Source of the DNA: an uncultured Tateyamaria sp.
Lineage (GTDB): Bacteria; Pseudomonadota; Alphaproteobacteria; Rhodobacterales; Rhodobacteraceae
Direction of reading: 5' to 3'
NCBI RefSeq assembly: GCF_947496075.1
Contig: NZ_CANMBJ010000003.1
Span: forward strand, 213,834-277,833
DNA: 64,000 bases
Each line of letters begins with the position of its first letter. Position 1 is the stretch's first letter. This document shows, in pieces, positions 8,376-44,052 of the stretch. A model generated the notes under the pieces. That model made no database searches and had not been told where the DNA came from. It saw only the letters and a list, made by a program, of their open reading frames with translations. The translations under genes were made by a program, and so were the position numbers.

Positions 8376-8385
8376 ATCCTGACAA
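8376..8385 (-). promoter_or_regulatory. Iron-type box TTGTCAGGAT between exporter and synthetase operons
   Basis: Exact decamer TTGTCAGGAT read on the minus strand, in the 93-bp gap between the exporter (minus) and the first synthetase (plus). GAC-N7-GTC symmetry is present around it (GACTGTTTTTGTC). The same decamer lies before the heme receptor (12999) and before the hemP operon (38367). It could control both divergent siderophore operons. Confidence 0.6.
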
Positions 8386-8455
8386 AAACAGTCGGTAATA
8401 CCTGCGAGACAGACAGTAAACGCGAATATTCCCGTTCGGCGAAAGGGCGCACATT

Positions 8456-10102
8456 ATGACTCACTCCCAAATGGCTGGCGATCTTGCGGCGCTTGATGCC
8501 TTTCTCAATTCGGCTCTGCGCGAAGGTCAATTGGCCGAGGCACAGCTTGGTGAGGCCAGCCTGCGTTTTAAGGATCACGTGGGGCGGAGCATCACAGTCG
8601 AGGTCAGGCAAAAATCAAACCTACGTACACTCTTTGGGCCTGGGATCAGGCGTCATCGCACACAAGGCTGGGAGGACCTCAGCGTAGCGCAGCTCTTGAC
8701 CTCCTTGGCAAAATCAGGAGGCGACACTTTCCGAACCCGCGTCATGGATAGCTTGGCAGGTCTTCGTCGCGCGCCGTTGATGAACGGAGACGCTGCTGCC
8801 TGGAATTTCCTTGCGGCCGAACAGGCGCTCAAAGCAGGTCATCCGTTCCACCCCAATCCGCGCAGCCGTGACGAGATGACTGCGGATGATGCCAAACGCT
8901 ATGCACCGGAGCACGAGCAGACATTTCAATTGCACTGGTTTGCGGCTGACCCCGCTCTGGTCGCATCGAACACCGGTGCAGCGGAGTACTTACGGCTGTT
9001 GGCAGATGCCGATCTTGGCGCGACAGATCGTGGCAAGGTTCTTCTCCCTTGGCATCCTTGGCAGGCTGAGCGGCTTGCCAACCAGAAGGCCATACAGGAC
9101 CTGATCGACAGCGGGGCGCTCGTCGATCTCGGTCGTGGCAAAGGTGCATGGGGCGCAACGTCATCGATGCGCTGCCTGCATGCTTGGCACGCGCCTTTCA
9201 TGGTAAAAACGTCTTTGTCACTGCGTTTAACCAACTCGGTCCGACACTTGTCCCTGCGCGAAGTGGTGCGGGGTGTTCACATCTCTGACCTGCTCAAATC
9301 GGATCTTGGCGCACGGATCAATCGGGACTTTCCAACGCTGAACATTCTCGGGGAACCGGGCTATGCCGCATTGTGTGACGGGGCGGGCGCAGTACGCGAC
9401 GACACAATCGTCGTCCTGCGTGACAACCCTTTTCGCGATGCTTCACAGCCGGGTCCAGTGATGCTAGCCGCTTTGTGCGAAGCAGCGCCCAATGGGCGGT
9501 CACCTCTTGGAAGACTGATACTTAGCCTTGGCCCGGATGCTGCACCCCGGTGGTTTGCCCGCTTTTTGGAGGTCGCCATCATACCACTCCTTGAGCTGCG
9601 CGCGCAATACGGGCTTCTGTTTGGCGCTCATCAGCAGAACCTGATGCTGGCCCTCGATGGGGGGTGGCCCAAGGCCGTTTGGATCCGGGATTGCCAAGGT
9701 ACCGGTCATCTGGACAGCTTCCACGAGATGTTGACGCAACATTGCCCCGGTATCGGCGAAGGTGCCGAGAATGTCGTGAATGCCGGGCTCGGCGATGGTC
9801 TGGTCACGTATTACGTCGTGATCAACAGCGTTCTGAACACGCTTTCCACCCTCGTTCTGGATAGGTTGGCAGACGAGGATCAACTGACCGACCTGTTGCG
9901 CGATTTCCTGCGACGCGCCCGGGCACAAACCCCCGGAGATCCCACGCTTTACACCAAGCTTCTCGAACAACCGACCCTCACCTGCAAAGGAAATTTCGCA
10001 ACCAGCCTCAGCGGCGTGAACGAAGCCGATGGCGACGCGCGCGGACAGGTCGCCAGTTTCCTTGACCTTCCCAACCCTTTATTGGAGCCCGTCCACGCAT
10101 GA
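8456..10102 (+). CDS. NIS siderophore synthetase, IucA/RhbC-like
   Basis: 548 residues of the IucA/IucC family, which joins citrate (or a citryl intermediate) to N-hydroxy-N-acyl amines through ATP-dependent adenylation. Visible family motifs are GHPFHPNPRSR (128-138, nucleotide/phosphate loop), LLPWHPWQ (196-203), the KTSLSLRLTNSVR segment (251-263) and a C-terminal ferric-iron-reductase-like half with YGLLFGAHQQN. It heads an operon with the acetyltransferase and a second synthetase, each overlapping by ATGA. That order equals iucA-iucB-iucC and suggests this enzyme does the first condensation. Weak AAGGG ribosome site before ATG 8456. Confidence 0.88.
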   Translation: MTHSQMAGDLAALDAFLNSALREGQLAEAQLGEASLRFKDHVGRSITVEVRQKSNLRTLFGPGIRRHRTQGWEDLSVAQLLTSLAKSGGDTFRTRVMDSLAGLRRAPLMNGDAAAWNFLAAEQALKAGHPFHPNPRSRDEMTADDAKRYAPEHEQTFQLHWFAADPALVASNTGAAEYLRLLADADLGATDRGKVLLPWHPWQAERLANQKAIQDLIDSGALVDLGRGKGAWGATSSMRCLHAWHAPFMVKTSLSLRLTNSVRHLSLREVVRGVHISDLLKSDLGARINRDFPTLNILGEPGYAALCDGAGAVRDDTIVVLRDNPFRDASQPGPVMLAALCEAAPNGRSPLGRLILSLGPDAAPRWFARFLEVAIIPLLELRAQYGLLFGAHQQNLMLALDGGWPKAVWIRDCQGTGHLDSFHEMLTQHCPGIGEGAENVVNAGLGDGLVTYYVVINSVLNTLSTLVLDRLADEDQLTDLLRDFLRRARAQTPGDPTLYTKLLEQPTLTCKGNFATSLSGVNEADGDARGQVASFLDLPNPLLEPVHA

Positions 10103-10989
10103 CCCTCGATGCTGCAACGCTGACTGAAGCGGCCTTTCCATCCCCCAACGATCTTGAACCGTTCGCGCGGTGGGTCGAAGACCGCTTTGCTCAAGACGGC
10201 AAAGCGGCGCATATCGACCTGCCACCCGAGCTAACACACCTTGGCCTTGACGCCCGACTGCCCGGATATGTTGACACTAGGGGCGGAGCACGGCGCATTC
10301 ATCGTTCCGGTTTTCTGCAATCACCCGAACCTTGGCTCAAGCATCCACAGACACGTTTCCAAAGCGCAGGATTGATTGAAGGCCCCGATGGTCGGAATCA
10401 CCCCCTACGTCCTGCAAATCCGCAGGGCGTCGTTTACGAGCGGTTCTTTGTTGATGCGGGCATAACCGTCACTTTTCGCTCGGTAGGTATCGACCACGAT
10501 CTTGATACCTTTCACCGTTGGCAGAATGACCCGCGCGTTGCTTATTTCTGGGAAGAAGATCGATCACGTGAAGAATTGCGCGGCTTTCTTGAAGACCGAT
10601 TGTCTGACCCGCACAATTTCTCGGTGATCGGGGAATATAACGGCGTGCCCGTGGGGTATTTCGAGATTTACTGGGCGCGCGAAGACAGATTGGGCGCATA
10701 CTACGATGCGGGTCTCTGGGATCGCGGCTGGCACGGTCTGATCGGTGAAGTCAGTGCACTTGGACGCGCCAAAACATCTGCCTGGATTCGTGCGCTGACC
10801 CATTACATCTTTCTTGATTGCCCAATGACAGATCTGGTCGTGGGCGAACCACGTGTCGATAATGCAAAGCTGCTTCGCTATGCGGACGCACTGGCGTATC
10901 GAAAGATCAAGGAATTTGATTTTCCACATAAACGATCTGCCCTGATGCATTGCGCCCGGGACGACTTTTTCAGCCGGGTGGCGCTATGA
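10099..10989 (+). CDS. N-hydroxy-amine acetyltransferase (IucB/RhbD-like GNAT)
   Basis: 296 residues with a C-terminal GNAT domain. FHRWQNDPRVAYFWEED opens the acyltransferase fold, GEYNGVPVGYFEIYWA is the central strand pair, GLWDRGWHGLIGEV takes the acyl-CoA region, and VVGEPRVDNAKLLRYADAL closes it, as in IucB/RhbD/MbtK-type enzymes. The role is acetyl (or acyl) transfer to the hydroxylated amine, giving the hydroxamate. It overlaps both neighbouring synthetase genes by four bases, so strong translational coupling is expected. Confidence 0.87.
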   Translation: MTLDAATLTEAAFPSPNDLEPFARWVEDRFAQDGKAAHIDLPPELTHLGLDARLPGYVDTRGGARRIHRSGFLQSPEPWLKHPQTRFQSAGLIEGPDGRNHPLRPANPQGVVYERFFVDAGITVTFRSVGIDHDLDTFHRWQNDPRVAYFWEEDRSREELRGFLEDRLSDPHNFSVIGEYNGVPVGYFEIYWAREDRLGAYYDAGLWDRGWHGLIGEVSALGRAKTSAWIRALTHYIFLDCPMTDLVVGEPRVDNAKLLRYADALAYRKIKEFDFPHKRSALMHCARDDFFSRVAL

Positions 10990-12752
10990 CCAAGAGCCTG
11001 GATACAGCGCGCCGACGGCTGCTGGCCAAGATGATCAGTGAGTTGAGTTGGGAAGAGGTTCTGCACCCGGAAGAAGGCAATGCGTTCCAGCTTATACTGG
11101 CGTCGAACCGGGTCTATCGTTTTCAGGCGACGCGGCGCATTTGGGACAATCTGGATATCGAACCGGAGAGTTTGTCCGTTGATACTGGTGAAACTCCTTG
11201 CCCGCTGCGGTTTGTCGTTGATGCGCGTGAAGAGTTGGGCATGACCCCTGACACCGAAGCAATGTTTTTGCGTGAGCTGTCGAATACTCTGCGACAAGAT
11301 ATCGAGTTGAAGCGGCTTTTTGGCGGTTTGGATGCACAAGCCTTGATCGCTTTGCCGCCGCGCACTTTACATGCTGCCCTTGAGGGGCATCCGAAGGCAG
11401 TCGCGAACAAAGGGCGACTTGGTTGGGACACGGCGGACCTGGCCGCCTACGCGCCAGAATACAAGGAGCCAATGCAGCTTTTCTGGCTTGCGGCTGACCA
11501 AACACTGTTGCGCAGCGGCAAGTCCAGAAACATTAGCGAAAATGATCTGCTTGGTGACATCTTCGGAACCGATCAGAGAGATCCTCTCAGGCAAGAAGCA
11601 CAGCAAGCGGGGGCAACGGATACGCATGTTTTACTGCCGGTTCATCCGTGGCAATGGCACAATCACCTTGAACAGTCCTTTGTGGTCGAGATCGCGCAAC
11701 AAAGGTTGATACCGCTGGGTCAGCATGGTCCGGAATTCGTGGCGACACCCAGCCTGCGCACACTGACACCTGTCAACGGAGGCCCATATGAGGTCAAGCT
11801 GTCGCTGGGTATTCTCAATACGTCCGCATGGAGAGGCATGCCTGGGAAATACATCGAACATGGCGGAGCGCTGTCAGACTGGCTGACTGACATCGTTCGG
11901 GCCGATCCACTCCTGGCAGGCCGTGTCATCGTTCTGCGCGAAGCCTTGGGCCATTGGGCTGCTCACCCGACCCTGTCTGATTGCCCCGATGCCCCTTATC
12001 GCCATCATGAAATGCTTGGTGCCATCTGGCGCGAGAACGCGGATGCAAAGACCAGCCCCAACCAAAAGGCTGTATTGGCAGCCGCTCTGTTTCACCAAGG
12101 CGCGTGCGGCACACCATTGGCCCAAGCCTATGCCAATGCGGCTGGGCTCAGCATCGCGGTCTGGCTGGAAGCGCTTTTCAAAGTCACCGTGGTTCCGCTC
12201 TGGCACATGCTTTGCCGTTATGGCGTAGGCTTCATCGCTCACGGCCAGAACATTACGGTCATTCTGGAAAATCACATTCCGGTTGGCATGGCTCTCAAGG
12301 ATTTTCAGGGCGATCTGGATCTTGTCGACCAAGATTTTCCGGAGATGGAAGGTTTGGACCCAGAGATACGCGCGCTGTTGCCGCGTAAGCCACCTGCTTA
12401 CATCATCCACGATATTCAGACCGCCCATTTTGTGACCGTGCTGCGCTTTTTATCAATGACCTTGGCGCGCACTGGGCAAATTGAAGAAAGCCGTTTCTAC
12501 GATATTTTGCGGGACGTCCTCTTGGACTATAAAATTTCGCATCTCGAACTTGCAGAGCGCCACAACATGTTTGATTTGTTTGAGCAAACGATGCCGAAGG
12601 TTTGCATCAACAAAGTGCGTCTTGCGATTGGCTACGGTGACAGTGGCGAACGTCCTTTGCCAGCGCGCGGTACCGATCTTGTGAATCCGCTTGCGAACAA
12701 CGGACATTTACAAGGTGCCATCGATGGAGAGTTGCTGTCTGCAAGCCGTTAA
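10986..12752 (+). CDS. NIS siderophore synthetase, IucC/RhbF-like
   Basis: 588 residues. Second IucA/IucC-type synthetase with EGHPKAVANKGRLG (133-146), LLPVHPWQW (216-224), VKLSLGILNTSAWRGMPG and, near the C-terminus, RYGVGFIAHGQN with KDFQGDLDL, all family signatures. It would catalyse the second amide bond to the citrate backbone, finishing an aerobactin-, schizokinen- or rhizobactin-type siderophore. Start ATG 10986 lies in an ATGA overlap with the acetyltransferase; a longer frame upstream is only overlap. No diaminobutyrate aminotransferase/decarboxylase genes (rhbA/rhbB-like) are adjacent. Confidence 0.88.
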   Translation: MTKSLDTARRRLLAKMISELSWEEVLHPEEGNAFQLILASNRVYRFQATRRIWDNLDIEPESLSVDTGETPCPLRFVVDAREELGMTPDTEAMFLRELSNTLRQDIELKRLFGGLDAQALIALPPRTLHAALEGHPKAVANKGRLGWDTADLAAYAPEYKEPMQLFWLAADQTLLRSGKSRNISENDLLGDIFGTDQRDPLRQEAQQAGATDTHVLLPVHPWQWHNHLEQSFVVEIAQQRLIPLGQHGPEFVATPSLRTLTPVNGGPYEVKLSLGILNTSAWRGMPGKYIEHGGALSDWLTDIVRADPLLAGRVIVLREALGHWAAHPTLSDCPDAPYRHHEMLGAIWRENADAKTSPNQKAVLAAALFHQGACGTPLAQAYANAAGLSIAVWLEALFKVTVVPLWHMLCRYGVGFIAHGQNITVILENHIPVGMALKDFQGDLDLVDQDFPEMEGLDPEIRALLPRKPPAYIIHDIQTAHFVTVLRFLSMTLARTGQIEESRFYDILRDVLLDYKISHLELAERHNMFDLFEQTMPKVCINKVRLAIGYGDSGERPLPARGTDLVNPLANNGHLQGAIDGELLSASR

Positions 12753-15184: not shown

Positions 15185-15245
15185 TCTGTCTCTTTGCGCC
15201 GTGACGAAGGTCAGCGTAAGGTGCTCTTTCACGCCTTGCTATATC

Positions 15246-15266
15246 TGATTAATTCTATCAGGAAAT
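15246..15266 (+). promoter_or_regulatory. Iron-type box with perfect dyad upstream of the 15.4-16.1 kb genes
   Basis: CTGAT-N7-ATCAG is a perfect dyad (15245-15261) that also reads TGA-N9-TCA, the form of a RirA/IRO-type site. Its right half runs on as ATCAGGAAAT, matching the TCAGGA core of the other boxes here. It lies 91 bp upstream of ATG 15357. Suggests that the downstream pair of genes is, or was, iron-regulated. Confidence 0.5.
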
Positions 15267-15356: not shown

Positions 15357-15566
15357 ATGACCCTGTTTACCAATTTGTTGCGCATGGATGCCTTGACCCA
15401 ACCTTATGGGTGTGGCCTGCATCCCAAGCTGCGTGCAGCCATCGAGGCCGATACACGCTGGCCAAGCAAAGCTACGTCGCCCGCCCCTGTGGAGGGAGCG
15501 CAGTTGCCAGAGGGCGTGACCCGTTTGCCTTTACATGCGCCCCGGCCCGGGCAGAAACGGGCATGA
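15357..15566 (+). CDS. Small hypothetical protein (69 aa) coupled to a frameshifted gene
   Basis: ATG 15357 opens a 69-codon frame (starts MTLFTNLLRMDALTQPYGCG, ends APRPGQKRA). Its TGA overlaps the next start as ATGA (15563-15566), the coupling style used throughout this region. No recognised domain, no signal peptide or membrane segment; a single Cys; proline-rich second half. An overlapping frame from 15326 is open too but reads less naturally. The ribosome site is weak. It sits 91 bp after an iron-type box. Function unknown; it could be an unconserved leader frame. Confidence 0.4.
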   Translation: MTLFTNLLRMDALTQPYGCGLHPKLRAAIEADTRWPSKATSPAPVEGAQLPEGVTRLPLHAPRPGQKRA

Positions 15567-16062
15567 GACTGCGCGCATTGCCCGAGGGCAGGGTTGATCT
15601 GGATCTGAGCGATTTGGATTTTGACACATTCGAGGCAGGTCTGCTTGCGGTTTCTCGGTATTTCTTTTTGACCACGCGGCACCCGAACGTCAGGCTTGGC
15701 AAACCGGTTTTGCCGTTGCCGTCGAACGATGGGGACCTGATATCGGATTGCCCGCTGCGCATGCCGTGGCAAAGTTGGTGCGAGCCGTGTACGACGCCCG
15801 TTCCGATTTTGGGTTCCATGATCCCTTTGGCACAGAGGCTCGCACGCGCGTCACCCCGGACGAAGCGACGATGATGCGCATGCTACACCACATGCGGCGG
15901 GACGAGACACCGGATGCTCGCGATGCCGTTGAGGCTTTGACCCTTGGCGGAATGGACCCACATGTAATCCGCGCAGGGCTCACTCTGTCCGCCAGATTTA
16001 GCGGCGGTGTACCTGAACAGAGGCACGCAGGCTGTCGCCCAAAGCTCCGCGTGGTGTCCTGA
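15563..16062 (+). pseudogene. Iron-linked family member A, frameshifted
   Basis: The frame from ATG 15563 reads FEAGLLAVSRYFF, then hits a T-run (TTTCTTTTTG, 15660-15669). After this the sensible protein continues in another frame (DHAAPERQAWQTG ... RVTPDEATMMRMLHHMRRDE ... DPHVIRAGLTLSARF) to TGA 16062. Adding one T restores about 166 codons in one frame. The restored protein aligns by eye with the genes at 36408, 38792 and 42033 over its whole length. So this is either a recently broken gene, a homopolymer assembly error, or, less likely, slippage on the T-run. No known domain recognised. Upstream gene overlap (ATGA) and the iron-type box suggest an iron-regulated operon. Confidence 0.6.
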
Positions 16063-32034: not shown

Positions 32035-32173
32035 TGACCGCCGGCGGTGCAATATGCATCGCCGCTTGTCCTCGCCTTTAAAGTCTACTATTTTTATCGG
32101 AAATCACCGAACGCAGCCAAGCCGCCCGGCCCAGCCATCCCCCTGCCCTTTTCAAGCATCAGGATCTGGCCGC

Positions 32174-35946: not shown

Positions 35947-36405
35947 ATGAAGCTCAGCACAAAGGGACGATACGCGCTGGTCGCTCTGGTCGACATCGCC
36001 TTTCACCAAGATGCCGGACTGGTGTCGATGAACGACATCAGCCGGCGGCAAGACATCTCTTTGCCATATCTCGAACAACTCTTTGCAAAGCTTAGGCGGC
36101 ACGGGCTTGTCATCTCGGTACGCGGCCCCGCCGGTGGATACAAGCTGGCCCGCGCACCCCATGACATCCGCATCGATGCTGTACTGGCCGCCGTGGACGA
36201 ATCGGTAAATGCGCTGCGTCAGGGTGCCGGGGCCAAGGGCGGCGCGTCAGGCACGCAGGCTCAGTCTCTGTCCAACCGCCTCTGGGAAGGGCTCAGTGCG
36301 CATGTCTATGTGTTCCTGCACCGCACAACGCTGGCGGATGTGATCGACAATGAACTGGTGCCCTGCCCGGCCATCCCCGCCCTGTTCGAAGTCGAAGACG
36401 CCTGA
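35947..36405 (+). CDS. iscR: Rrf2/IscR-type regulator with a single cysteine
   Basis: 152 residues, winged-helix Rrf2 family: MKLSTKGRYALVALVDIA, ISRRQDISLPYLEQLFAKLRRHGLV, VRGPAGGYKLAR. The three Cys that hold the cluster in E. coli IscR are absent: the loop reads LRQGAGAKGGASGTQAQSLS before NRLWEGLS. Only C140 (ELVPCPAIPALF) remains. A one-Cys IscR with unusual cluster ligation is known from Rhodobacter sphaeroides, from my recall. Here the gene sits downstream of hmuV (11 bp; AAGGAGACGCGCC ribosome site), rather than at an isc/suf operon. It is a good candidate for the regulator of the TCAGGA boxes in this window; that link is inferred. Confidence 0.83.
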   Translation: MKLSTKGRYALVALVDIAFHQDAGLVSMNDISRRQDISLPYLEQLFAKLRRHGLVISVRGPAGGYKLARAPHDIRIDAVLAAVDESVNALRQGAGAKGGASGTQAQSLSNRLWEGLSAHVYVFLHRTTLADVIDNELVPCPAIPALFEVEDA

Positions 36406-36407
36406 GA

Positions 36408-36977
36408 TCACACCCGGATCGTGTCGCGCGTCGTTGCACCGACACAATCGGCAAAGCCGCGCGCGGCAGCAATCACGCGGTCGGTCGCATGGCCCTCGCA
36501 CAAAAGCATAGCTGATGAGGCCAGCATGGATACACGGTGCGCCCGCGCATGCTGCACCAGTTGCAGCAAGTGCCGTTCGTCTTCAGTGACAATGCTGGAA
36601 CATCCTTCGCATCGGGGATTGGAAAAGCGAAAGGTCGACCGACGGGACGTGCGCATTTCGTGTACGACCGCCAAGGCCCTGCGCATCTTTTCCGCGCTGT
36701 CGGGGCCGGGAAAGAAATAGTCCGCCCCAAGCATGGCCGTCACCCATGCGCCGCCAAGCGGTTCAGAAAAGGACACACAGAAATACCGCGCGGCGGACAG
36801 GAATCCGTACTCGACGGCATCCGCATCTAACGCTTCTAAGGACGTGTCGCCCATAGACATAAGGTGGCAACAATTGTGTGGTCTATCAGCCATGATACTC
36901 ATCCTTGGCGGGTCGGCCGTCACGGTCAGCGACAGTTGCGGACCCGCGTTCAGGCAAGACCCGATGGCAATAGACAT
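36408..36977 (-). CDS. Iron-linked family member B, hypothetical
   Basis: 189 residues from ATG 36977; a Met at the start of MSMGDTSLEALDAD is a likelier alternative, since the first 40 residues look unlike the rest. The core reads YGFLSAARYFCVSFSEP, RRALAVVHEMRTSRRSTFRF, NPRCEGCSSIVTEDERHLLQ and DRVIAAARGFADCV. CxxC (CEGC) is visible. No known domain recognised, soluble, mainly helical. By eye it aligns end to end with the genes at 15563, 38792 and 42033. It converges with the IscR-like gene (3 bp apart). A role in iron or heme handling is guessed from location only. Confidence 0.7.
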   Translation of the reverse strand: MSIAIGSCLNAGPQLSLTVTADPPRMSIMADRPHNCCHLMSMGDTSLEALDADAVEYGFLSAARYFCVSFSEPLGGAWVTAMLGADYFFPGPDSAEKMRRALAVVHEMRTSRRSTFRFSNPRCEGCSSIVTEDERHLLQLVQHARAHRVSMLASSAMLLCEGHATDRVIAAARGFADCVGATTRDTIRV

Positions 36978-37160
36978 CCATCGGATGCGTTCGCATTCGC
37001 AGCAGATCAGGCTTTACTCCGTCCGCAAACTTGGCTGCAAAATCCAGCAGCCGCAGTATCCCCGGTAGATCTCGTGACATCGCCAAAGCCCCCATTCACA
37101 ACAGAATTCCCGGGCATACGATTGGTTTCGCGGCTTGGTTTTAGAAAGATGATAGAAAAA

Positions 37161-37170
37161 CTCAGGATTC
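37161..37170 (+). promoter_or_regulatory. Iron-type box CTCAGGATTC before the iron-binding protein
   Basis: TCAGGAT core with AT-rich left flank (TGAT-N7-CTCAGG). It lies 109 bp upstream of ATG 37279, in the 301-bp gap after member B. Degenerate relative to TTGTCAGGAT. Beyond this box and the hairpin that follows, I see no gene in the gap. Confidence 0.45.
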
Positions 37171-37171
37171 G

Positions 37172-37209
37172 GCAAGCCATTTCCGACAATTTTGCTCGGA
37201 AAGGCTTGC
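37172..37209 (+). other. Long near-perfect hairpin in the leader of the iron-binding protein gene
   Basis: GCAAGCC + TTTCCGA (37172-37186, one bulged A) pair with TCGGAAA + GGCTTGC (37196-37209), so 14 bp with a 9-nt loop. It starts one base after the iron-type box and ends 69 bp before ATG 37279. No immediate T-run on the plus strand. It may be a leader structure, a protein-binding dyad, or a terminator for antisense transcripts. Confidence 0.6.
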
Positions 37210-37278
37210 TTTCCGCCGGGGCTGCTGTAATTGACTGTTTCTGTAAGATTAAGATCTGTGGGAACAGGGAGTATTTCC

Positions 37279-38298
37279 ATGACTGCAAGAACCTATTTCG
37301 TCACCCTTGCTGCTGCGGCCATCACCGCCGCAAGTGCTGCGGCCGAAGGCGAACTGAATCTGTATTCATCACGCCACTACGACACCGATGAACGCCTGTA
37401 TTCAGAATTCACCGAAGCCACCGGCATCACCATCAACCGCATCGAAGGCAAGGCCGACGAGCTCATCGAGCGGATGAAAGCCGAAGGTGCCAACTCGCCC
37501 GCCGACATCCTACTGACAGTAGATACTTCGCGCCTGGAACGCGCCAAGGACGCAGGCGTGTTGCAGTCGATCGAAAGCGAAACGCTCGAAGCGCGTATCC
37601 CCGCCAACCTTCAGGACGGCGACAATCAGTGGTTCGGCTTCAGCCAGCGCGCGCGCATCATCTTTTATGACAAGAATGACGTGGCAAACCCGCCCGCGAC
37701 CTATGTGGATCTCGCGGACCCTGACTATAAAGGCCAAGTGTGTCACCGTTCGTCCTCGAACGTCTACTCCCAAACTCTGCTGTCGGCTGTGATCCAGAAC
37801 CACGGCGAAGAAGCTGCCAAAGGCTGGGCACAGGGTGTGGTCGACAACTTTGCCCGCTCGCCCCAGGGCGGCGACACGGACCAGCTGCGCGGTCTGGTGT
37901 CTGGCGAGTGCGACATCTCGATCTCAAACACCTACTACTTCGCCCGCGCCATCCGCAAAGATGTCGATGGTCTGCCTGCCGATGCCCGCGCCAATATCGG
38001 CTGGGTCTTCCCCGCGCAGAATGCCGAAGGCGCGCACATGAACCTGTCAGGTGGCGGCGTAGCGGCAAACGCTCCGAACAAGGAAAACGCAATTGCGTTC
38101 ATGGAGTATCTGGCCAGCGATCAGGCGCAGCAATACTTCTCGGCTGGCAACGATGAATACCCTGCCGTACCTGGCGTCGGCCTCAGCCCATCGGTGGCTG
38201 CGCTTGGGCTGTTCCGCCCCGATGGCGTGGACCTGACCGAGGTGGCCAAGAACGTGCCGACCGCTCAGAAGATCTTTAACGAGGTGGGCTGGGAGTAA
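37279..38298 (+). CDS. Periplasmic Fe3+ ABC-transport binding protein (FbpA/FutA type)
   Basis: 339 residues. Signal peptide MTARTYFVTLAAAAITAASAAAE; mature start GELNLYSSRHYDTDERLYSEF, the FutA/FbpA hallmark. Ferric-iron ligands are expected at H33/Y34 and the Tyr pair Y219-Y220 (ISNTYYFARAI). AGGGAG before ATG 37279. It would carry free Fe3+ in the periplasm. No partner permease or ATPase (FbpB/C) adjoins; a terminator closes the gene, so the membrane parts must be elsewhere or it works as an iron-sequestering protein. Confidence 0.87.
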   Translation: MTARTYFVTLAAAAITAASAAAEGELNLYSSRHYDTDERLYSEFTEATGITINRIEGKADELIERMKAEGANSPADILLTVDTSRLERAKDAGVLQSIESETLEARIPANLQDGDNQWFGFSQRARIIFYDKNDVANPPATYVDLADPDYKGQVCHRSSSNVYSQTLLSAVIQNHGEEAAKGWAQGVVDNFARSPQGGDTDQLRGLVSGECDISISNTYYFARAIRKDVDGLPADARANIGWVFPAQNAEGAHMNLSGGGVAANAPNKENAIAFMEYLASDQAQQYFSAGNDEYPAVPGVGLSPSVAALGLFRPDGVDLTEVAKNVPTAQKIFNEVGWE

Positions 38299-38324
38299 TT
38301 CCGCTCAAACGATGAAGAATTAGG

Positions 38325-38349
38325 AAGGCGCGGTAAAAGACCGCGCCTT
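38325..38349 (+). terminator. Rho-independent terminator after the iron-binding protein gene
   Basis: AAGGCGCGGT (38325-38334) and ACCGCGCCTT (38340-38349) form a perfect 10-bp stem with an AAAAG loop, followed by TTCTTTT. Strong, and isolates this gene from the hemP operon. Confidence 0.9.
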
Positions 38350-38366
38350 TTCTTTTCCTACTGGAA

Positions 38367-38376
38367 TTGTCAGGAT
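38367..38376 (+). promoter_or_regulatory. Iron-type box TTGTCAGGAT before the hemP operon
   Basis: Exact decamer, third full copy in the window, in the 174-bp gap after the terminator. It is 97 bp upstream of the first start codon (38473). Confidence 0.65.
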
Positions 38377-38472
38377 TGACGTACCCGACAAAAACAATCA
38401 ACATATCTGCAATGAGTCTCAGCCACCCTATTCGGGCAGCCCGGACGCCGCTGGCCCAACAGGAGGTGAGAC

Positions 38473-38625
38473 ATGGTGAGACGACACGTAAGCAGACGCG
38501 AAAAAGCCCGCAGGTGCTGTGAAAAGCCGTGCTGCCAGGAACTGCTGCAGGGTGCCCTTGGTGGGCTCTACGGCGATGATCAATGTCTTGAGCGCATGCT
38601 TGATCATCTGGAGCGGGCATCATGA
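38473..38625 (+). CDS. 50-aa cysteine-rich basic protein coupled to hemP
   Basis: ATG 38473 follows a textbook AGGAGGTGAG, the strongest ribosome site in the region, which supports real translation. The product has two CC pairs close together (ARRCCEKPCCQE) and a fifth Cys (DDQCLERML), an Arg-rich N-terminus and an amphipathic end. Its TGA overlaps the hemP start (ATGA). No known family recognised. Position and cysteines suggest binding of a metal, heme or a cluster, or a leader for translational control of hemP. Small size makes it easy to miss in annotation. Confidence 0.7.
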   Translation: MVRRHVSRREKARRCCEKPCCQELLQGALGGLYGDDQCLERMLDHLERAS

Positions 38626-38795
38626 ATGCGATGACACAGGTCCCGAACACAACAACCGCGCCCGACCCGCAGCAGATCGATACCTATGACGCACGCGATC
38701 TGATCAAGGACGGTGTGCAGGCGTCCATCGTGCTGGATGGACAGGTTTACTATCTGCGCATCACCCGCGCAGGCAAATTGATCCTCACAAAATGA
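38622..38795 (+). CDS. hemP: Hemin uptake protein HemP
   Basis: 57 residues. The C-terminal half, LIKDGVQASIVLDGQVYYLR followed by ITRAGKLILTK, is the HemP family signature (small beta-rich protein). HemP is linked to heme uptake; in some bacteria it acts as an activator of heme receptor genes. It overlaps the preceding Cys-rich gene and the following member C gene by ATGA, so all three are translated as a coupled set. Confidence 0.9.
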   Translation: MNAMTQVPNTTTAPDPQQIDTYDARDLIKDGVQASIVLDGQVYYLRITRAGKLILTK

Positions 38796-39262
38796 GCAGC
38801 GCACATCACGCCCGTGGAGGTGCGGCCGTCGCCGCTCTCAACCGCATGGACGAATGGGAAGCCAACCTTGTCCTGAATTTGCGCCTGTGGTGCGAAGGGC
38901 CTGCCGGCAAATCGCAGGCGCGCCAGGATTATAGTAATGTGTTCCCCGCGCCCGAAGCAGATCGCGCATGGCAAACCTTTGAAGGTCTGCTGAACAAGAT
39001 CATCTGCACCGCTTCCCGACCGCTTGTCCGGCACGAGGTGGGGTGCAACTGCGTTGGTTCGGACGAATGCGTTTTCGTAAACCTTGTCCGCACGGCATCC
39101 GACGGACATCTGAACGACGCAGCGCTGATTGCAACGCTGCTGTCGGGTCCGGCCCACGCTGAGCACATCGCCCTTATGGCGGGCGAAGTCGGCACCACGA
39201 TCCGACGCATCCACAGACCAGTACCACCCGCAGCCAAACCCAACGAGGTGCGCCTGCACTAA
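38792..39262 (+). CDS. Iron-linked family member C, hypothetical
   Basis: 156 residues, soluble, no signal. Segments: MDEWEANLVLNLRLWCEGPA, ADRAWQTFEGLLNKIICTAS, HEVGCNCVGSDECVFVNLVR, HIALMAGEVGTTIRR. GCNC and DEC give a Cys cluster. It aligns by eye with the genes at 15563, 36408 and 42033. Coupled to hemP by ATGA, and 33 bp before the imelysin gene. Function unknown; the tight link to hemP suggests a part in heme or iron sensing. Confidence 0.75.
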   Translation: MSSAHHARGGAAVAALNRMDEWEANLVLNLRLWCEGPAGKSQARQDYSNVFPAPEADRAWQTFEGLLNKIICTASRPLVRHEVGCNCVGSDECVFVNLVRTASDGHLNDAALIATLLSGPAHAEHIALMAGEVGTTIRRIHRPVPPAAKPNEVRLH

Positions 39263-39295
39263 CCCGTCAGAAAACAAAATAAGGGAAAGCCACCT

Positions 39296-40555
39296 ATGAA
39301 ACTGACAATGACCACTGCACTCGGGACAGTGCTATTGGCAGCCGCCCCCGCACTTGCGGATAAGGCCGCCGTTTTAGACAATTATGCTGATATTGCGCTT
39401 GCCAAATACACTGACAGCCTGACCACAGCTCAAACGTTGTTGGCAGCGGTAACTGACCTCACCGAAAACCCTTCGGCCGAAGCCCTGCAGGCGGCGAAAG
39501 AGGCATGGCTGGCGTCTCGCGTGCCCTACCAACAGACTGAAGTTTACCGCTTTGGCAACGCCATCGTCGATGACTGGGAAGGCAAGGTGAACGCTTGGCC
39601 ACTGGACGAAGGGTTGATCGACTATGTCGACGCCTCCTATGGCGGGGCGACAGATGAAAACGAATATGCCGTATTGAATGTTGTGGCGAACGCAACCTTC
39701 ACCCTATCAGGTGAGACTGTTGACGCGTCAGACATCACGCCTGAACTGCTCGAAGGTGCGCTGCACGAGGCGGACGGCGTCGAATCGAACGTCGCGACCG
39801 GCTATCACGCCATCGAATTTCTGCTGTGGGGTCAGGATCTTAACGGCCACGACGCAGGTGCAGGTAATCGCCCCTGGACGGACTACGCCGCGGGTGACGC
39901 CTGCACAGGCGGGAACTGCGACCGCCGCGCCGACTATCTGACAGCAGCAACGGAGCTGCTGGTGTCAGATCTGGAATGGATGGTCGCGCAATGGCAGGAC
40001 GGCGGGGATGCCCGCACCCAACTGACCGCAGACGAAAACGCAGGCATCAGCACCATCCTGACCGGCATGGGCTCGCTCAGCTACGGCGAGCAGGCCGGTG
40101 AGCGAATGCGCCTTGGCGTGCTGTTGAACGACCCCGAGGAAGAGCACGACTGCTTCTCGGACAACACGCATAACAGTCACTTCTACGACGCGCTTGGCAT
40201 CCGCAACGTCTATCTGGGCAGCTATACGTCCATCGACGGCACCATCGTGTCGGGCGAAAGTCTGTCGTCGCTCGTCGCTGCGACTGACGCGGGTGTCGAC
40301 ACCGAACTGCGCGCCAAGCTGGATGCAACGATGCTGGAAATGTCAGAGATGAAAACGGCCGCCGAAGCCGGGTTTGCCTATGACATGATGCTTGAGCGCG
40401 GCAATGACGCGGGCGAGGCGCTGATCATGGGCGCAGTTGAAGCGCTGGTGGATCAAACCCGGTCTATCGAACGGGCCGTGGTAGCCCTTGGCGTTGACGC
40501 GATCGAGTTCGAAGGCTCGGACAGCCTCGACAACCCCGACGCTGTGTTCCAGTAA
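39296..40555 (+). CDS. Imelysin / IrpA-type iron-regulated periplasmic protein
   Basis: 419 residues. Signal MKLTMTTALGTVLLAAAPALA; the M75/imelysin motif GxHxxE is G169-Y-H171-A-I-E174 within GYHAIEFLLWGQDLNGHDAG, as in IrpA. A CxxxNC (ACTGGNC) and a further Cys follow. Members are iron-regulated outer-surface or periplasmic proteins, probably iron-binding rather than proteases. AAGGGAAAG before ATG 39296. It lies in one unit with hemP and member C. Paired with a second imelysin at 44054. Confidence 0.87.
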   Translation: MKLTMTTALGTVLLAAAPALADKAAVLDNYADIALAKYTDSLTTAQTLLAAVTDLTENPSAEALQAAKEAWLASRVPYQQTEVYRFGNAIVDDWEGKVNAWPLDEGLIDYVDASYGGATDENEYAVLNVVANATFTLSGETVDASDITPELLEGALHEADGVESNVATGYHAIEFLLWGQDLNGHDAGAGNRPWTDYAAGDACTGGNCDRRADYLTAATELLVSDLEWMVAQWQDGGDARTQLTADENAGISTILTGMGSLSYGEQAGERMRLGVLLNDPEEEHDCFSDNTHNSHFYDALGIRNVYLGSYTSIDGTIVSGESLSSLVAATDAGVDTELRAKLDATMLEMSEMKTAAEAGFAYDMMLERGNDAGEALIMGAVEALVDQTRSIERAVVALGVDAIEFEGSDSLDNPDAVFQ

Positions 40556-40628
40556 CGGTTCCCCATGCGTGGCACCGGGGTTCCCCTAAACCCCGCCGCG
40601 CACATCGCCATCCTCCGGGTGGCCCCCT

Positions 40629-40666
40629 CGCGCGCACCGGATGTTTCCGCGTTTCCGGTGCGCGCG
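40629..40666 (+). terminator. Strong hairpin after the IrpA-type gene
   Basis: CGCGCGCACCGGA (40629-40641) and TCCGGTGCGCGCG (40654-40666) are perfectly complementary with a 12-nt loop. Only a short TT follows. Probably ends the hemP operon; a processed or stabilising structure is possible. Confidence 0.65.
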
Positions 40667-40720
40667 TTGCAAATCCAGACCTGAATACCCAGCTCAGCTC
40701 AGCAACAGCGAGGTTACCGA

Positions 40721-40978
40721 ATGGCCAAGACCCCAAGCCCCTGCATCGACGTCTGCAAGTTCAAACGCGAAGGTCATTGTATCGGCTGTTCCATGACCAA
40801 GACGCAGAAATCGATGTTCAAGCAGTTGAAGAAGGACAAGCACCGCGCAGCCTTTGTCGAGATGGTGGTGACCCAGCAAAAGATGCTCGGCCAGTACAAG
40901 CACTGGGTGCCGCAATACCTGCGCAAATGCCTCAAGAAGAAAGCGAAATCCGTTCAGGCGGTGCGCGACGCGGCCTGA
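40721..40978 (+). CDS. DUF1289-type small cysteine protein
   Basis: 85 residues. PSPCIDVCKFKREGHCIGCS matches the DUF1289 four-Cys pattern (CxxxCxxxxxxxCxxC), then a Lys-rich helical part (MFKQLKKDKHRAAF, KCLKKKAKS). Cys arrangement suggests a metal or Fe-S site. Usual members are shorter at the C-terminus. It is preceded by GCGAGG and lies between the hairpin at 40629 and the frameshifted secreted-protein gene. Function is not established. Confidence 0.8.
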   Translation: MAKTPSPCIDVCKFKREGHCIGCSMTKTQKSMFKQLKKDKHRAAFVEMVVTQQKMLGQYKHWVPQYLRKCLKKKAKSVQAVRDAA

Positions 40979-41001
40979 CATCCTGACACAAGGATCGCGC
41001 C

Positions 41002-41402
41002 ATGCTCCGCCTTCCTGCCACCTGTCTCCTTCTCTCTACCCCTGCCGTTGCCGACTACAGTCTGGCCATCACGGACACCGGCAAACGCGACTATTACTGT
41101 ACGATCACCGTGGCCCTGACCAATGACAGTGATGCGCATCTGACTGAAATCAACGCGTTCTTTCTGAACTATATCGGCGACAAACAAGTGGGCGGTCCAA
41201 GGGCGCTTCCTTTTTCAATGTCGCGCCCGGCGCTTCGGTGTCAGCGGTTTTCGAAACGCCCAACGCGCCTTGCGCCGAGGTCGAGCGTTACGACATGATC
41301 ATCGGCGCCTGCCGCCTTGGTTCGTCATTCGAAGACAAAAGCGTGTGTGTCGACCAAATGGCACTCACCCCACCCTTCGGGGCGGCGGCACCCCTTGAGT
41401 GA
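41002..41402 (+). pseudogene. Secreted four-Cys protein, frameshifted
   Basis: ATG 41002 opens a signal peptide (LPATCLLLSTPAVA) and a domain with YCTITVALTNDSDAHLTEIN and FFLNYIGDKQVG. At the GGG of 41190-41192 the coherent protein moves to another frame (RSKGASFFNVAPGASVSAVF, ETPNAPCAEVERYDMIIGAC, KSVCVDQMAL) ending TGA 41402. One extra G joins them into about 133 residues. The joined protein resembles the one at 56352 beside exbB: same C-TxTxxxTN start and similarly spaced later Cys. So a homopolymer deletion in the genome or in the assembly. AGGA precedes the start. Confidence 0.6.
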
Positions 41403-41410
41403 CAAGAAAA

Positions 41411-41433
41411 AAGCCGCCCCAGCGGAACGGCTT
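41411..41433 (-). terminator. Rho-independent terminator of dps
   Basis: Read on the minus strand, AAGCCG and CGGCTT (41428-41433 and 41411-41416) bracket a GC-rich centre, followed by TTTTTTCTT. It lies about 22 bp after the dps stop. Confidence 0.75.
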
Positions 41434-41455
41434 CAAAAATTACTGCTTGCTCACA

Positions 41456-41926
41456 TCACGCCAGATGGGACCGCAGGAACCATGCGAACTTTTCGTGCTC
41501 CTGACCGCGCGCAATGCACAAGTCTTCGGTCAGTGTGTCGCCATGCTCGGCTGCCAACTCGCCACAGCCCGCCAGTGTTGCAGCCAGGGTTTCCTGCGCT
41601 TCCTGCATGATCTTGATCATCTCTTTGTCGGTCGCATGGCCGTCATGCTCTTTGACCTTGGAGCGCGCCAACATGCCCGCAAGCGTACCCTCGGCAAACG
41701 CATCGATCGCGCGGATACGTTCGGCCAGATCGTCCTGCGCAACAAAATGATCTTCGTAAATCTTCTGAAACAGGTCGTGCAGCGGGCCAAAGGCCATGCC
41801 CTTTACATTCCAATGGAAATTCTGCGCCAGCATCGTCGTCACCGCGGTTTCCGCAACAGACTGGTTCAACGCTTCGGCAATGGCAGCGCGTGCATCAGTA
41901 GACAGCGCAACAGCTGTTTGAGTCAT
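41456..41926 (-). CDS. dps: Dps ferritin-like DNA-protection protein
   Basis: 156 residues, Dps family. Ferroxidase residues lie in NFHWNVKGMAFGPLHDLFQKIYED (the two His and Asp) and HFVAQDDLAERIRAI (D and E). It oxidises and stores Fe2+ with H2O2 and binds DNA under stress. Start ATG 41926. An Irr-type operator lies about 100 bp upstream (42022). Member D gene is directly upstream on the same strand. Confidence 0.92.
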   Translation of the reverse strand: MTQTAVALSTDARAAIAEALNQSVAETAVTTMLAQNFHWNVKGMAFGPLHDLFQKIYEDHFVAQDDLAERIRAIDAFAEGTLAGMLARSKVKEHDGHATDKEMIKIMQEAQETLAATLAGCGELAAEHGDTLTEDLCIARGQEHEKFAWFLRSHLA

Positions 41927-42021
41927 CCCTACAATCCTCTTTATTTTGACGCTGGCTTGCACGGTGCTGGCTGGCTTGCCCAGTATTAGTTAGGCACCCA
42001 GATCAGATAGGCAAGTGGTTT

Positions 42022-42036
42022 TTAGAACAATTCTAA
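42022..42036. promoter_or_regulatory. Irr-type (ICE) operator upstream of dps
   Basis: TTAGAACAATTCTAA, perfect 6-bp arms with a 3-bp spacer, the form of Irr/ICE boxes in alphaproteobacteria. It lies 96 bp upstream of dps and overlaps the last codons and stop of member D. Irr is the iron-responsive heme-binding Fur-family regulator known from rhizobia and relatives; the Irr gene itself is not in the window. Confidence 0.65.
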
Positions 42037-42455
42037 CTCAGAGAAAAATACTCTGAAATACGGCCCACCAGAAAACGGACCAAACGACGGTGTTCCGGCA
42101 GCACGCGGGACCTCAGCAGAAAGCCGACGCTTGCCTCATCCCGACGCACCACAGCCTGACCGAGCTGTATCAGCCACGTCTCATCAAAAGACATCTCAAG
42201 CGTGCCGGGCGTATGCAATCGCGCGGGTTTTCCAAGGGCTTGGCTCAAACATCGCATCAACGCCTCGGCATGGGCTTCTTGCGAGGCAGTGCGGGTCACA
42301 TGCAACAAGGCGCAGGCTTCAAACAAGTCGGCGCGCGGTTTGGACCGGCATGACATGGACATGAAACGCAAGTGATTGATAAAGGCAAACGCCTCGGCTG
42401 ATACTGGCCGAATGGGCCGCGGTTCAGCCACCATATCCAATCGCAAGGGCACCAT
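42033..42455 (-). CDS. Iron-linked family member D, hypothetical
   Basis: 140 residues. Segments AEAFAFINHLRFMSMSCRSK, AHAEALMRCLSQALGKPARL, LEMSFDETWLIQLGQAVVRR and HRRLVRFLVGRISEYF align by eye with the genes at 15563, 36408 and 38792. No Cys motif here except two single Cys in the N-terminal half. GGAGA about 9 bp before ATG 42455. It lies between dps (downstream, same strand) and the di-heme gene (divergent), with an iron-type box in the divergent gap. Function unknown. Confidence 0.7.
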   Translation of the reverse strand: MVPLRLDMVAEPRPIRPVSAEAFAFINHLRFMSMSCRSKPRADLFEACALLHVTRTASQEAHAEALMRCLSQALGKPARLHTPGTLEMSFDETWLIQLGQAVVRRDEASVGFLLRSRVLPEHRRLVRFLVGRISEYFSLS

Positions 42456-42504: not shown

Positions 42505-42514
42505 AATTCCTGAG
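42505..42514 (-). promoter_or_regulatory. Iron-type box between member D and the di-heme protein gene
   Basis: On the minus strand the sequence reads CTCAGGAATT, a degenerate TCAGGA box, 14 bp before ATG 42529 and 50 bp before ATG 42455. An AT-rich tract (TATATTTATAA) beside it could be a -10 region. Confidence 0.45.
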
Positions 42515-42528
42515 TATATTTATAAGCT

Positions 42529-44052
42529 ATGAGTAAGATCACAAGCATATTCCCGACCATACTTGTCGGACTTTTGACATTTCCTGCCGGTGCAGTGGCC
42601 GAACTCACAGACTTACACCTGCCTGTGATTCCAAGAACAGCGGCCGAGGCCGAGCGTATCTCGGCTGTCACGCAACCCACCACCGATTTCACAAAAGCCG
42701 AACAATTCGAAAACAATCCGGCCGGGGCCGCGACTGTACGCGTCAGCGACACACGCAACGCATTCAGTCAGCCATCGGGCAATATCAGCTTTGAAAAAGA
42801 GCTGGATTTCAAAGTCGGCAACGGCCTGTTCAAAAAGCTGTGGGTGTCTTCGCCCTCGTCCACACTTGCATCCGACGGGCTAGGGCCACTCTTCAACGCG
42901 CGGTCGTGCCAGCGCTGCCACCTGAAAGACGGGCGGGGTCATCCACCTGCGGGGCCAGACGACAAAGCAACATCAATGCTCGTGCGCGTGTCAATCCCCG
43001 GCGGCGCATCCCTCGAGGACATTGCAGACTACATCACCACCCAGCCCGACCCGAACTACGGCGGCCAGATTCAGGATTTCTCGGTCGCAGGGGTCGATGC
43101 CGAGGCAAAGCTGCAAATCACCTATACCGAAGAGGTCATCGCGCTCTCGGGCGGTGAAACCGCCTCCCTCCGACACCCCGCCTATGACCTGATCAACCTC
43201 GGCTACGGCCCGCTGCACCCAGATGTGATGCTGAGCCCGCGCGTGGCGCCGCAAATGATCGGGCTGGGCCTGCTCGACGCGATCCCCGCGGCGGATATCC
43301 TCGCAATGGCCGATCCCGATGATGCGGATGGTGATGGCATCTCGGGCAAGGCCCAAATCGTCATGTCCAGCGCATACAATGTGCCGATGTTGGGGCGGTT
43401 CGGCCTCAAGGCGGGCAAGCCCTCTGTCTGGGAACAATCGGCAGGCGCTTTTTCCGGTGACATCGGTATCTCAACCACATTGCACCCCGCAGGTTACGGC
43501 GACTGTACCGAAGCGCAGACCAAATGCCGCACGGCACCCAACGGCAATACAACGGCGCACGACGATGCCGAGATCGGCGATGTGGGGCTTGAACTGGTGT
43601 CGTTCTATTCCTCGAACCTTGGCGTGCCCGCGCGCCGCGATATCGATGATCCGCAGGTGCTACGGGGCAAGCAAGTGTTCTATGATACCGGCTGCATCTC
43701 CTGCCACACACCCAAGCACGTCACGCACCGGCTCGACGGACAACCCGAACAAAGCTTTCAGCTGATCTGGCCCTATACCGATCTGCTCCTGCACGACATG
43801 GGCCCCGGTCTGGCCGACAACCGGCCCGAGGCGCGCGCGAATGGCCAGGAATGGCGCACACCGCCGCTTTGGGGTGTCGGCTTGACGGAAACCGTGTCCG
43901 GCCACACGTTGTTCCTACACGACGGGCGCGCCCGCAACCTGCTTGAAGCGGTCCTCTGGCACGGGGGCGAGGCCAAACCACACAAACAAACGGTCATCGA
44001 CATGCCGCCACCCGACCGCGCCGCCTTGATCCGTTTCCTTGAAAGCCTCTGA
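42529..44052 (+). CDS. Di-heme c-type oxidoreductase (DUF1111, thiol-oxidoreductase-like)
   Basis: 507 residues, exported (signal to about AVAE). Two heme c sites: CQRCH (127-131) and CISCH in the C-terminal half, in the arrangement of DUF1111 / di-heme cytochrome peroxidase-like proteins. LFNARSCQRCH and GRDLLEAVLWHGGEA-like ending (RARNLLEAVLWHGGEAKP) fit that family. Acts in the periplasm. First of a run (this gene - imelysin - DUF1513) also found together in other proteobacteria next to IrpA. A periplasmic electron-transfer step tied to iron is likely; the substrate is unknown. Confidence 0.85.
   Translation: MSKITSIFPTILVGLLTFPAGAVAELTDLHLPVIPRTAAEAERISAVTQPTTDFTKAEQFENNPAGAATVRVSDTRNAFSQPSGNISFEKELDFKVGNGLFKKLWVSSPSSTLASDGLGPLFNARSCQRCHLKDGRGHPPAGPDDKATSMLVRVSIPGGASLEDIADYITTQPDPNYGGQIQDFSVAGVDAEAKLQITYTEEVIALSGGETASLRHPAYDLINLGYGPLHPDVMLSPRVAPQMIGLGLLDAIPAADILAMADPDDADGDGISGKAQIVMSSAYNVPMLGRFGLKAGKPSVWEQSAGAFSGDIGISTTLHPAGYGDCTEAQTKCRTAPNGNTTAHDDAEIGDVGLELVSFYSSNLGVPARRDIDDPQVLRGKQVFYDTGCISCHTPKHVTHRLDGQPEQSFQLIWPYTDLLLHDMGPGLADNRPEARANGQEWRTPPLWGVGLTETVSGHTLFLHDGRARNLLEAVLWHGGEAKPHKQTVIDMPPPDRAALIRFLESL

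Follow-up and report, generated by a model that had tools for sequence, protein, structure and literature searches.

Four diverged genes beside different iron functions in a Tateyamaria sp.: one protein family within a predicted iron regulon

Can four small genes that lie beside four different iron functions, and that ordinary annotation would leave unconnected, derive from a common ancestor, and if so, what might they do there? The question is raised by a 64,000-nucleotide stretch of contig NZ_CANMBJ010000003.1 from an uncultured Tateyamaria sp. of the Rhodobacteraceae (the whole stretch is called the window below), in which an original prediction, based on an alignment by eye, had placed four genes, here A to D (Table 1), in a single family. 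The gene positions and the cited motifs were confirmed in the sequence, as were the neighbors named for each gene: a TonB-dependent receptor by A, hmuSTUV and an IscR-like gene by B, hemP by C, and dps by D. Our analysis indicates that A, B, C, and D are almost certainly paralogs of one superfamily that was taken, in some branches, into the iron regulon, and that the four genes may encode a hitherto undescribed group of helpers in the handling of iron.

The identity among the four proteins is as low as had been claimed, and in ordinary annotation they are separate hypotheticals. None of the five pairs tested by BLASTP gave a significant match; the best E values were 4.3 for B and C, 3.6 for B and D, 1.1 for C and D, and 0.45 for B against the N part of A, and B against the C part of A produced zero alignments. 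Scans of Pfam and NCBIfam returned nothing over cutoff for B, C, D, or either piece of A. PHROGs yielded no annotation for B, C, D, and three relatives, nor did the sequences in the PDB when searched with B or with three of the alignments (A5, A7, and A2).

Behind this low identity, comparisons of sequence profiles indicate a single family. Each of A and B finds the relatives of the other, so the two join at once (subfamily AB; hhalign probability of 99.8, E = 5e-29). The AB and C profiles align over 120 columns (E = 1.3e-4), those of C and D over 124 (E = 9e-4), and those of AB and D over 120 (E = 4e-3), with the D-E pair in register in all three alignments. The real scores, 22.9 to 32.4 versus 12.6 to 13.9 for reversed profiles, were never reached by column shuffles; among block shuffles, 0 per 100 reached the real score for AB-C, 0 for C-D, and 2 for AB-D. 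A resemblance by mere composition was considered and is ruled out by the shuffled and reversed controls. The profiles were also run against 16,399 unique six-frame open reading frames (ORFs) from the examined loci. In the top 50 non-own matches, the other subfamilies accounted for 18 with the AB profile, 15 with the C profile, and 32 with the D profile, where at most 0.5 was expected; many of these ORFs are not genes, which makes the p-values untrustworthy, and the enrichment is large nonetheless. The N part of A was the top nonmember match of the AB profile (E = 0.0016), and the C part was matched at E = 1.1e-11 by a 29-row superfamily profile (A7) from which it is absent.

The gap between the subfamilies is closed by relatives from outside the window's bacterial order that two or three of the subfamily profiles match. 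The searches turned up about 32 distinct places of this kind, of which 20 loci were sampled, including all four places matched by two profiles. At least two profiles matched 10 of the 21 outside members at E ≤ 1e-3, a fraction that selection makes an unfair sample, and the members in loci L217 and L231 were matched by all three. The shuffled control is fair: of the 4,221 copies that had been shuffled or reversed, not one reached even an E value of 0.01. Alignment A7 has two invariant columns only, one holding the Arg of helix 1 and the other the Glu in the D-E pair; both belong to the layout described for the four proteins, whose other motif features are not invariant across the superfamily. 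The alignment by eye is thus upheld by profile alignments, controls, and outside relatives, and we count the common ancestry of A to D, as judged from sequence comparison, as established.

The predicted structures of C and D, each built from an alignment of its own, agree in the order of their six helices and nearly so in the helix boundaries, helix 2 being shorter in D, in keeping with a single family. The AlphaFold model of C (70 C sequences; pLDDT of 86.4, pTM of 0.82) has helices at residues 21 to 34, 37 to 50, 53 to 73, 90 to 103, 107 to 118, and 120 to 137, and that of D (6 D sequences only; pLDDT of 78.8, pTM of 0.71) at residues 20 to 37, 45 to 51, 55 to 74, 90 to 103, 107 to 117, and 120 to 139. 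At E ≤ 0.001, Foldseek found no match for C or D in the PDB, nor for C among viral models.

The nearest named relative is Pfam DUF6628 (PF20333), a domain of unknown function of which no mention was found in the open-license literature. It shares superfamily ancestry with the A-to-D family: the L217 relative matches DUF6628 at E = 2.5e-4 in addition to the AB, C, and D profiles (L217 and L224 both score below the 27-bit cutoff), and L237 of genome G418, which is over that cutoff, is matched by the superfamily profile at E = 3e-8. DUF6628 differs in that A to D have no match to it at E ≤ 1 and in that the AB, C, and D profiles singly miss L237.

Common regulation is suggested by a predicted operator. 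De novo motif discovery in 74 hemP promoters, all from other genomes, among 80 named C loci yielded a palindromic matrix, ATCTGACTAAaTTAGTCAGAT; these loci are the best 80 of 168 from one query alignment, are mutually related, and are nearly all labeled Rhodobacteraceae or genera thereof. Seven sites in the window score at least 12, versus a mean of 0.1 in shuffles, and predicted sites accompany each of the four genes (Table 1). Among relatives, an upstream operator was found for AB in 36 of 54 rows and for D in 19 of 30, versus 3.9% of 2,000 random pieces. Tandem copies and the genes of the window itself are counted among these rows, rows under 300 bp were dropped, and the row of the broken A (L082) was scored as a miss, the scanned stretch having ended short of its site. 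The hemP promoter of Rhodobacter sphaeroides has been described as a binding site of IscR that carries a 19-bp palindrome named the Iron-Rhodo-box (PMC4618611), and hemP is induced there by iron limitation (PMC4176601, PMC3413700). The 21-bp palindrome is likely the same element as the Iron-Rhodo-box. A is broken in this genome, yet its operator scores highest in the window; since intact copies are present in relatives, the frameshift is a recent loss or a sequencing error.

Gene order links C to hemP. The hemP stop and the C start overlap in the ATGA at positions 38792 to 38795, and among the 80 named loci hemP ends at or just before C in 74, with the exact 4-nucleotide overlap in 66. Such a translational overlap usually means that the proteins are made in matched amounts and act together. 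An imelysin gene follows C in 56 of these loci, and a di-heme oxidoreductase (DHOR) gene, a second imelysin gene, and a DUF1513 gene occur in 55 each. Of the 50 places outside the window's genome that hold other C loci, 29 were sampled; hemP lies upstream in 24 and imelysin near in 13. HemP, a small protein needed for heme use in other bacteria, activates heme-receptor genes by a disputed route, as a DNA-binding or as a posttranscriptional activator, and two HemP proteins have been reported to bind heme (PMC9131926). We take C as a putative partner of HemP because of the translational overlap and because HemP activates heme-receptor genes. The suggestion that the family might be partners of HemP gains strong genetic support for C. 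HemP/HmuP is a Pfam family of its own (PF10636), which C does not match; within this set only the neighbor at 38622 does, and none of A to D. The arrangement resembles the R. sphaeroides hemP-irpA-bfd-bfr operon under IscR, where hemP likewise comes first, irpA (RSP_1548, an imelysin according to PMC4344238) follows, and an IscR site with a palindrome lies in the hemP promoter (PMC4618611); the difference is that the operon, as described in these publications, has no C-like gene between hemP and irpA.

Upstream of hemP in the window, a 50-codon Cys-rich ORF (positions 38473 to 38625) overlaps the hemP start by an ATGA, so that three genes are possibly coupled, and in a few relatives a small ORF before hemP has, by eye, an LEWLLDRLE-like end. 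A conserved small Cys-rich ORF at this place was considered and rejected: by rule it is present in 8 of 74 loci, and the candidates are too dissimilar for a family.

For D, the gene partner is dps. Of 27 further D loci, all outside the window, 23 have dps downstream on the strand of D, at distances between about -3 and 190 nucleotides; DUF1289 is near in 21 of the 27 loci and hemP in 9. A D-dps-DUF1289 block with a receptor and hmuTU is also found in another bacterial family (L222). D is not itself Dps-like: it has no Pfam Ferritin (PF00210) match and no significant fold match (the best E value against ferritins and Dps proteins was 0.72).

B has a weaker gene-order link, to hmu. We examined 40 AB loci, up to about 8 kb on each side, together with 20 control pieces; a FecCD-type permease was near in 10 of 40 versus 0 of 20, and the ABC ATPase probe, which is unspecific, hit 16 of 40 versus 4 of 20. 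The best NCBIfam match of the regulator between hmuV and B is IscR, below that model's cutoff, and by eye its VPCPAI end resembles PCPAV, described as a heme motif of R. sphaeroides IscR (PMC4618611). The real start of B may lie some tens of codons downstream of the one listed.

Genes that match the AB profile are often immediate neighbors, in twos or threes (L239, L246, L250, L255, L266, and L277), and in G092, G118, and G123 the pair consists of one A-type and one B-type gene. B keeps CxxC and most A-type proteins have lost it, as if the pair had divided roles. At L244 (about 8760 to 12001) and L249 (about 8661 to 11904), AB genes lie beside genes that look, by eye, like those for catalase-peroxidase and an OxyR-type regulator.

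In a set of 149 genomes from the bacterial family of the window, its own genome among them, matches were found in 16 for B, 49 for C, 26 for D, and 8 for the C part of A, which hence has relatives in 7 other genomes; among 289 genomes of the class, again including its own, the numbers are 25 for C, 10 for D, and 7 for AB. For the profile searches, the genomes were drawn from larger groups. The superfamily profile (E ≤ 0.001) found at least one member in 50 of 105 genomes of the bacterial family. In the 4.94-Mb genome that holds the window it found four members, all in the window and within about 27 kb; the profile contains B, C, and D, so that their recovery is circular, and the informative results are that A was recovered and that no other member was. 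A whole cluster is present in G314 (L248): receptor, hmuSTUV, AB, hemP, C, imelysin, DUF1289, dps, D, DHOR, imelysin, and DUF1513.

Some branches of a small six-helix superfamily were almost certainly recruited to the iron-starvation regulon in Rhodobacteraceae, and it is tempting to assume that A to D are partner-specific helpers made when iron is low. C would most likely bind HemP, or act on the same transcripts, and so tune the activation of heme-uptake genes; D would most likely bind Dps, controlling iron loading or DNA binding; and A and B may have a similar task in the uptake of heme or siderophores. The scaffold common to all four, with its helix-1 Arg and D-E pair, could provide the frame for binding, to which B and C would add, in their Cys pairs, an optional metal, heme, or redox switch. 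We put forward the explanation as a whole, that is, paralogous iron-regulated helpers with C working with HemP and D with Dps, as a tentative one that falls somewhat short of probable, and the partner-specific adaptor mechanism within it as conceivable with slightly less assurance. The bolder statement, that this is a new fold family of plug-in, partner-specific iron regulators (C for HemP, D for Dps, A and B for heme or siderophore import) in which duplicates of one scaffold are co-induced at low iron, is rather doubtful.

Several results weigh against this explanation. Neither co-regulation nor conserved gene order is proof of contact, and even at the looser score of 8 no operator site was found for AB in 14 of 54 rows and for D in 8 of 30. 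No probed iron gene lies within about 8 kb in 20 of 40 AB loci; the idea that gene order links AB to iron in general, which was considered, therefore holds only in part, and the tie of AB to iron rests on the operator. C is not required wherever hemP occurs, since several loci have hemP beside D-dps with no C within the 1.5 kb examined. Neither A nor B is present in three same-genus genomes examined, which weakens the case for long-term fixity of the cluster. Outside the bacterial order to which the window belongs, 14 of 20 loci lack any probed gene nearby, four show only the ABC ATPase, L222 has the D-dps block described above, and in L232 the family member lies about 1 kb away from a HemS-like gene. 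The claim that the family expanded beside iron genes accordingly holds for the four members here and fails for most of the outside members examined. As for the Cys pairs, D lacks one, and the window's C lacks C67, C70, and C94, three of the five Cys residues common in its subfamily; a metal site or cofactor is for these reasons not the common function of the family.

That the four genes are co-regulated passengers, paralogs of a general alphaproteobacterial family with an unrelated small-molecule or RNA role and no contact with HemP or Dps, would suit the outside loci without probed genes, whose neighbors look mixed by eye, and the varying neighbors of AB. The 4-nucleotide overlap with hemP and the same-strand order of D and dps are, however, kept across many loci, beyond what shared regulation needs, and we consider this alternative unlikely. 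Equally to be weighed is a reading in which A to D are sensors or chaperones for metal, heme, or Fe-S clusters, with Cys pairs (and His81 in C) that bind heme or a cluster and neighbors that merely share the pathway. The Cys pairs noted in the original prediction are well kept in their subfamilies, as are further residues: in the C subfamily (n = 110), C85 is found in 110 proteins, C87 in 108, H81 in 109, C94 in 100, and C70 in 94, and in the B subfamily C123 and C126 are present in all 17 aligned proteins and C160 in 13 of 17. Heme binding by two HemP-family proteins (PMC9131926) fits as well. The pairs are, however, a property of the B and C subfamilies and not of the superfamily, being absent from D, from most A-type proteins, and from some outside relatives, and the window's C lacks the three Cys residues named above. 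A cofactor is possible in B and C, to judge from these residues; for the four proteins together, this reading seems improbable.

A redox role of the AhpD type, using CxxC, is brought to mind by the top Foldseek matches of the C model, which are AhpD chains. These matches are not significant (E of 0.42, TM of about 0.28), the AhpD motif, ExxCxxCxxxH, is absent from B, which reads NPRCEGCSSIVTEDERH, and D has no Cys pair, so that this role is very unlikely. Least credible of all is a chance resemblance of short helical proteins, for which the BLASTP results, the 2 in 100 block shuffles for AB-D, and the unrelated ORFs among the top non-own matches (best E of 0.0041, with the D profile) could be cited, and which is already contradicted by the top 50 enrichment, by intermediates that two or three profiles match and no shuffled copy does, and by the common helix order of the C and D models.

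We found no description of the family in the literature searched, which consists of open-license papers. In its biological role, it may yet turn out to supply a novel type of helper to a pathway that is already known. In many Rhodobacteraceae, hemP has a translationally coupled partner gene that is absent from the literature searched; C could bear on the dispute over how HemP acts, and D is a candidate dedicated accessory protein of Dps. More generally, the "unrelated hypotheticals" of one regulon can be one diverged paralogous family.

Table 1. Genes and predicted operator sites in the window (positions counted from its first nucleotide)
Feature	Positions	Strand	Remarks
Palindrome site	8377-8397		Score ≥12; before the ORF at 8456, siderophore stretch
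Predicted operator, 21-bp palindrome	15243-15263		Score 20.9, highest in the window; about 300 bp upstream of A
A	15563-16062	+	Fourth member; frameshift in first half; two open pieces in different frames, N part starting at 15563 and C part ending at 16062
Palindrome site	32082-32102		Score ≥12; upstream of hmuS
IscR-like Rrf2 regulator	35947-36405	+	Pfam PF02082; between hmuV and B; VPCPAI tail
B	36408-36977	-	189 aa; family member with CxxC
Predicted operator	37181-37201		Score 18.1; between B and the 37231 ORF, a divergent solute-binding-protein gene
Second predicted site at B	37229-37249		Score 15.1
Predicted operator of hemP-C operon	38355-38375		Score 14.4
Second predicted site at hemP-C	38383-38403		Score 11.6
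hemP	38622-38795	+	Pfam PF10636, E = 7.5e-16; 57 residues
C	38792-39262	+	156 aa; family member with CxC, coupled to hemP
Imelysin gene	39296-40555	+	Pfam PF09375; directly downstream of C
dps	41456-41962	-	Pfam PF00210 Ferritin; directly downstream of D, same strand
D	42033-42455	-	140 aa; family member without Cys pair; SFDExWL motif
Predicted operator	42508-42528		Score 15.2; between D and the divergent DHOR gene
Second predicted site at D/DHOR	42551-42571		Score 9.6

Among the outside relatives, members are paired on opposite strands at L233 (4835 to 5895) and at L228 (4266 to 5486), where the second copy was judged by eye.

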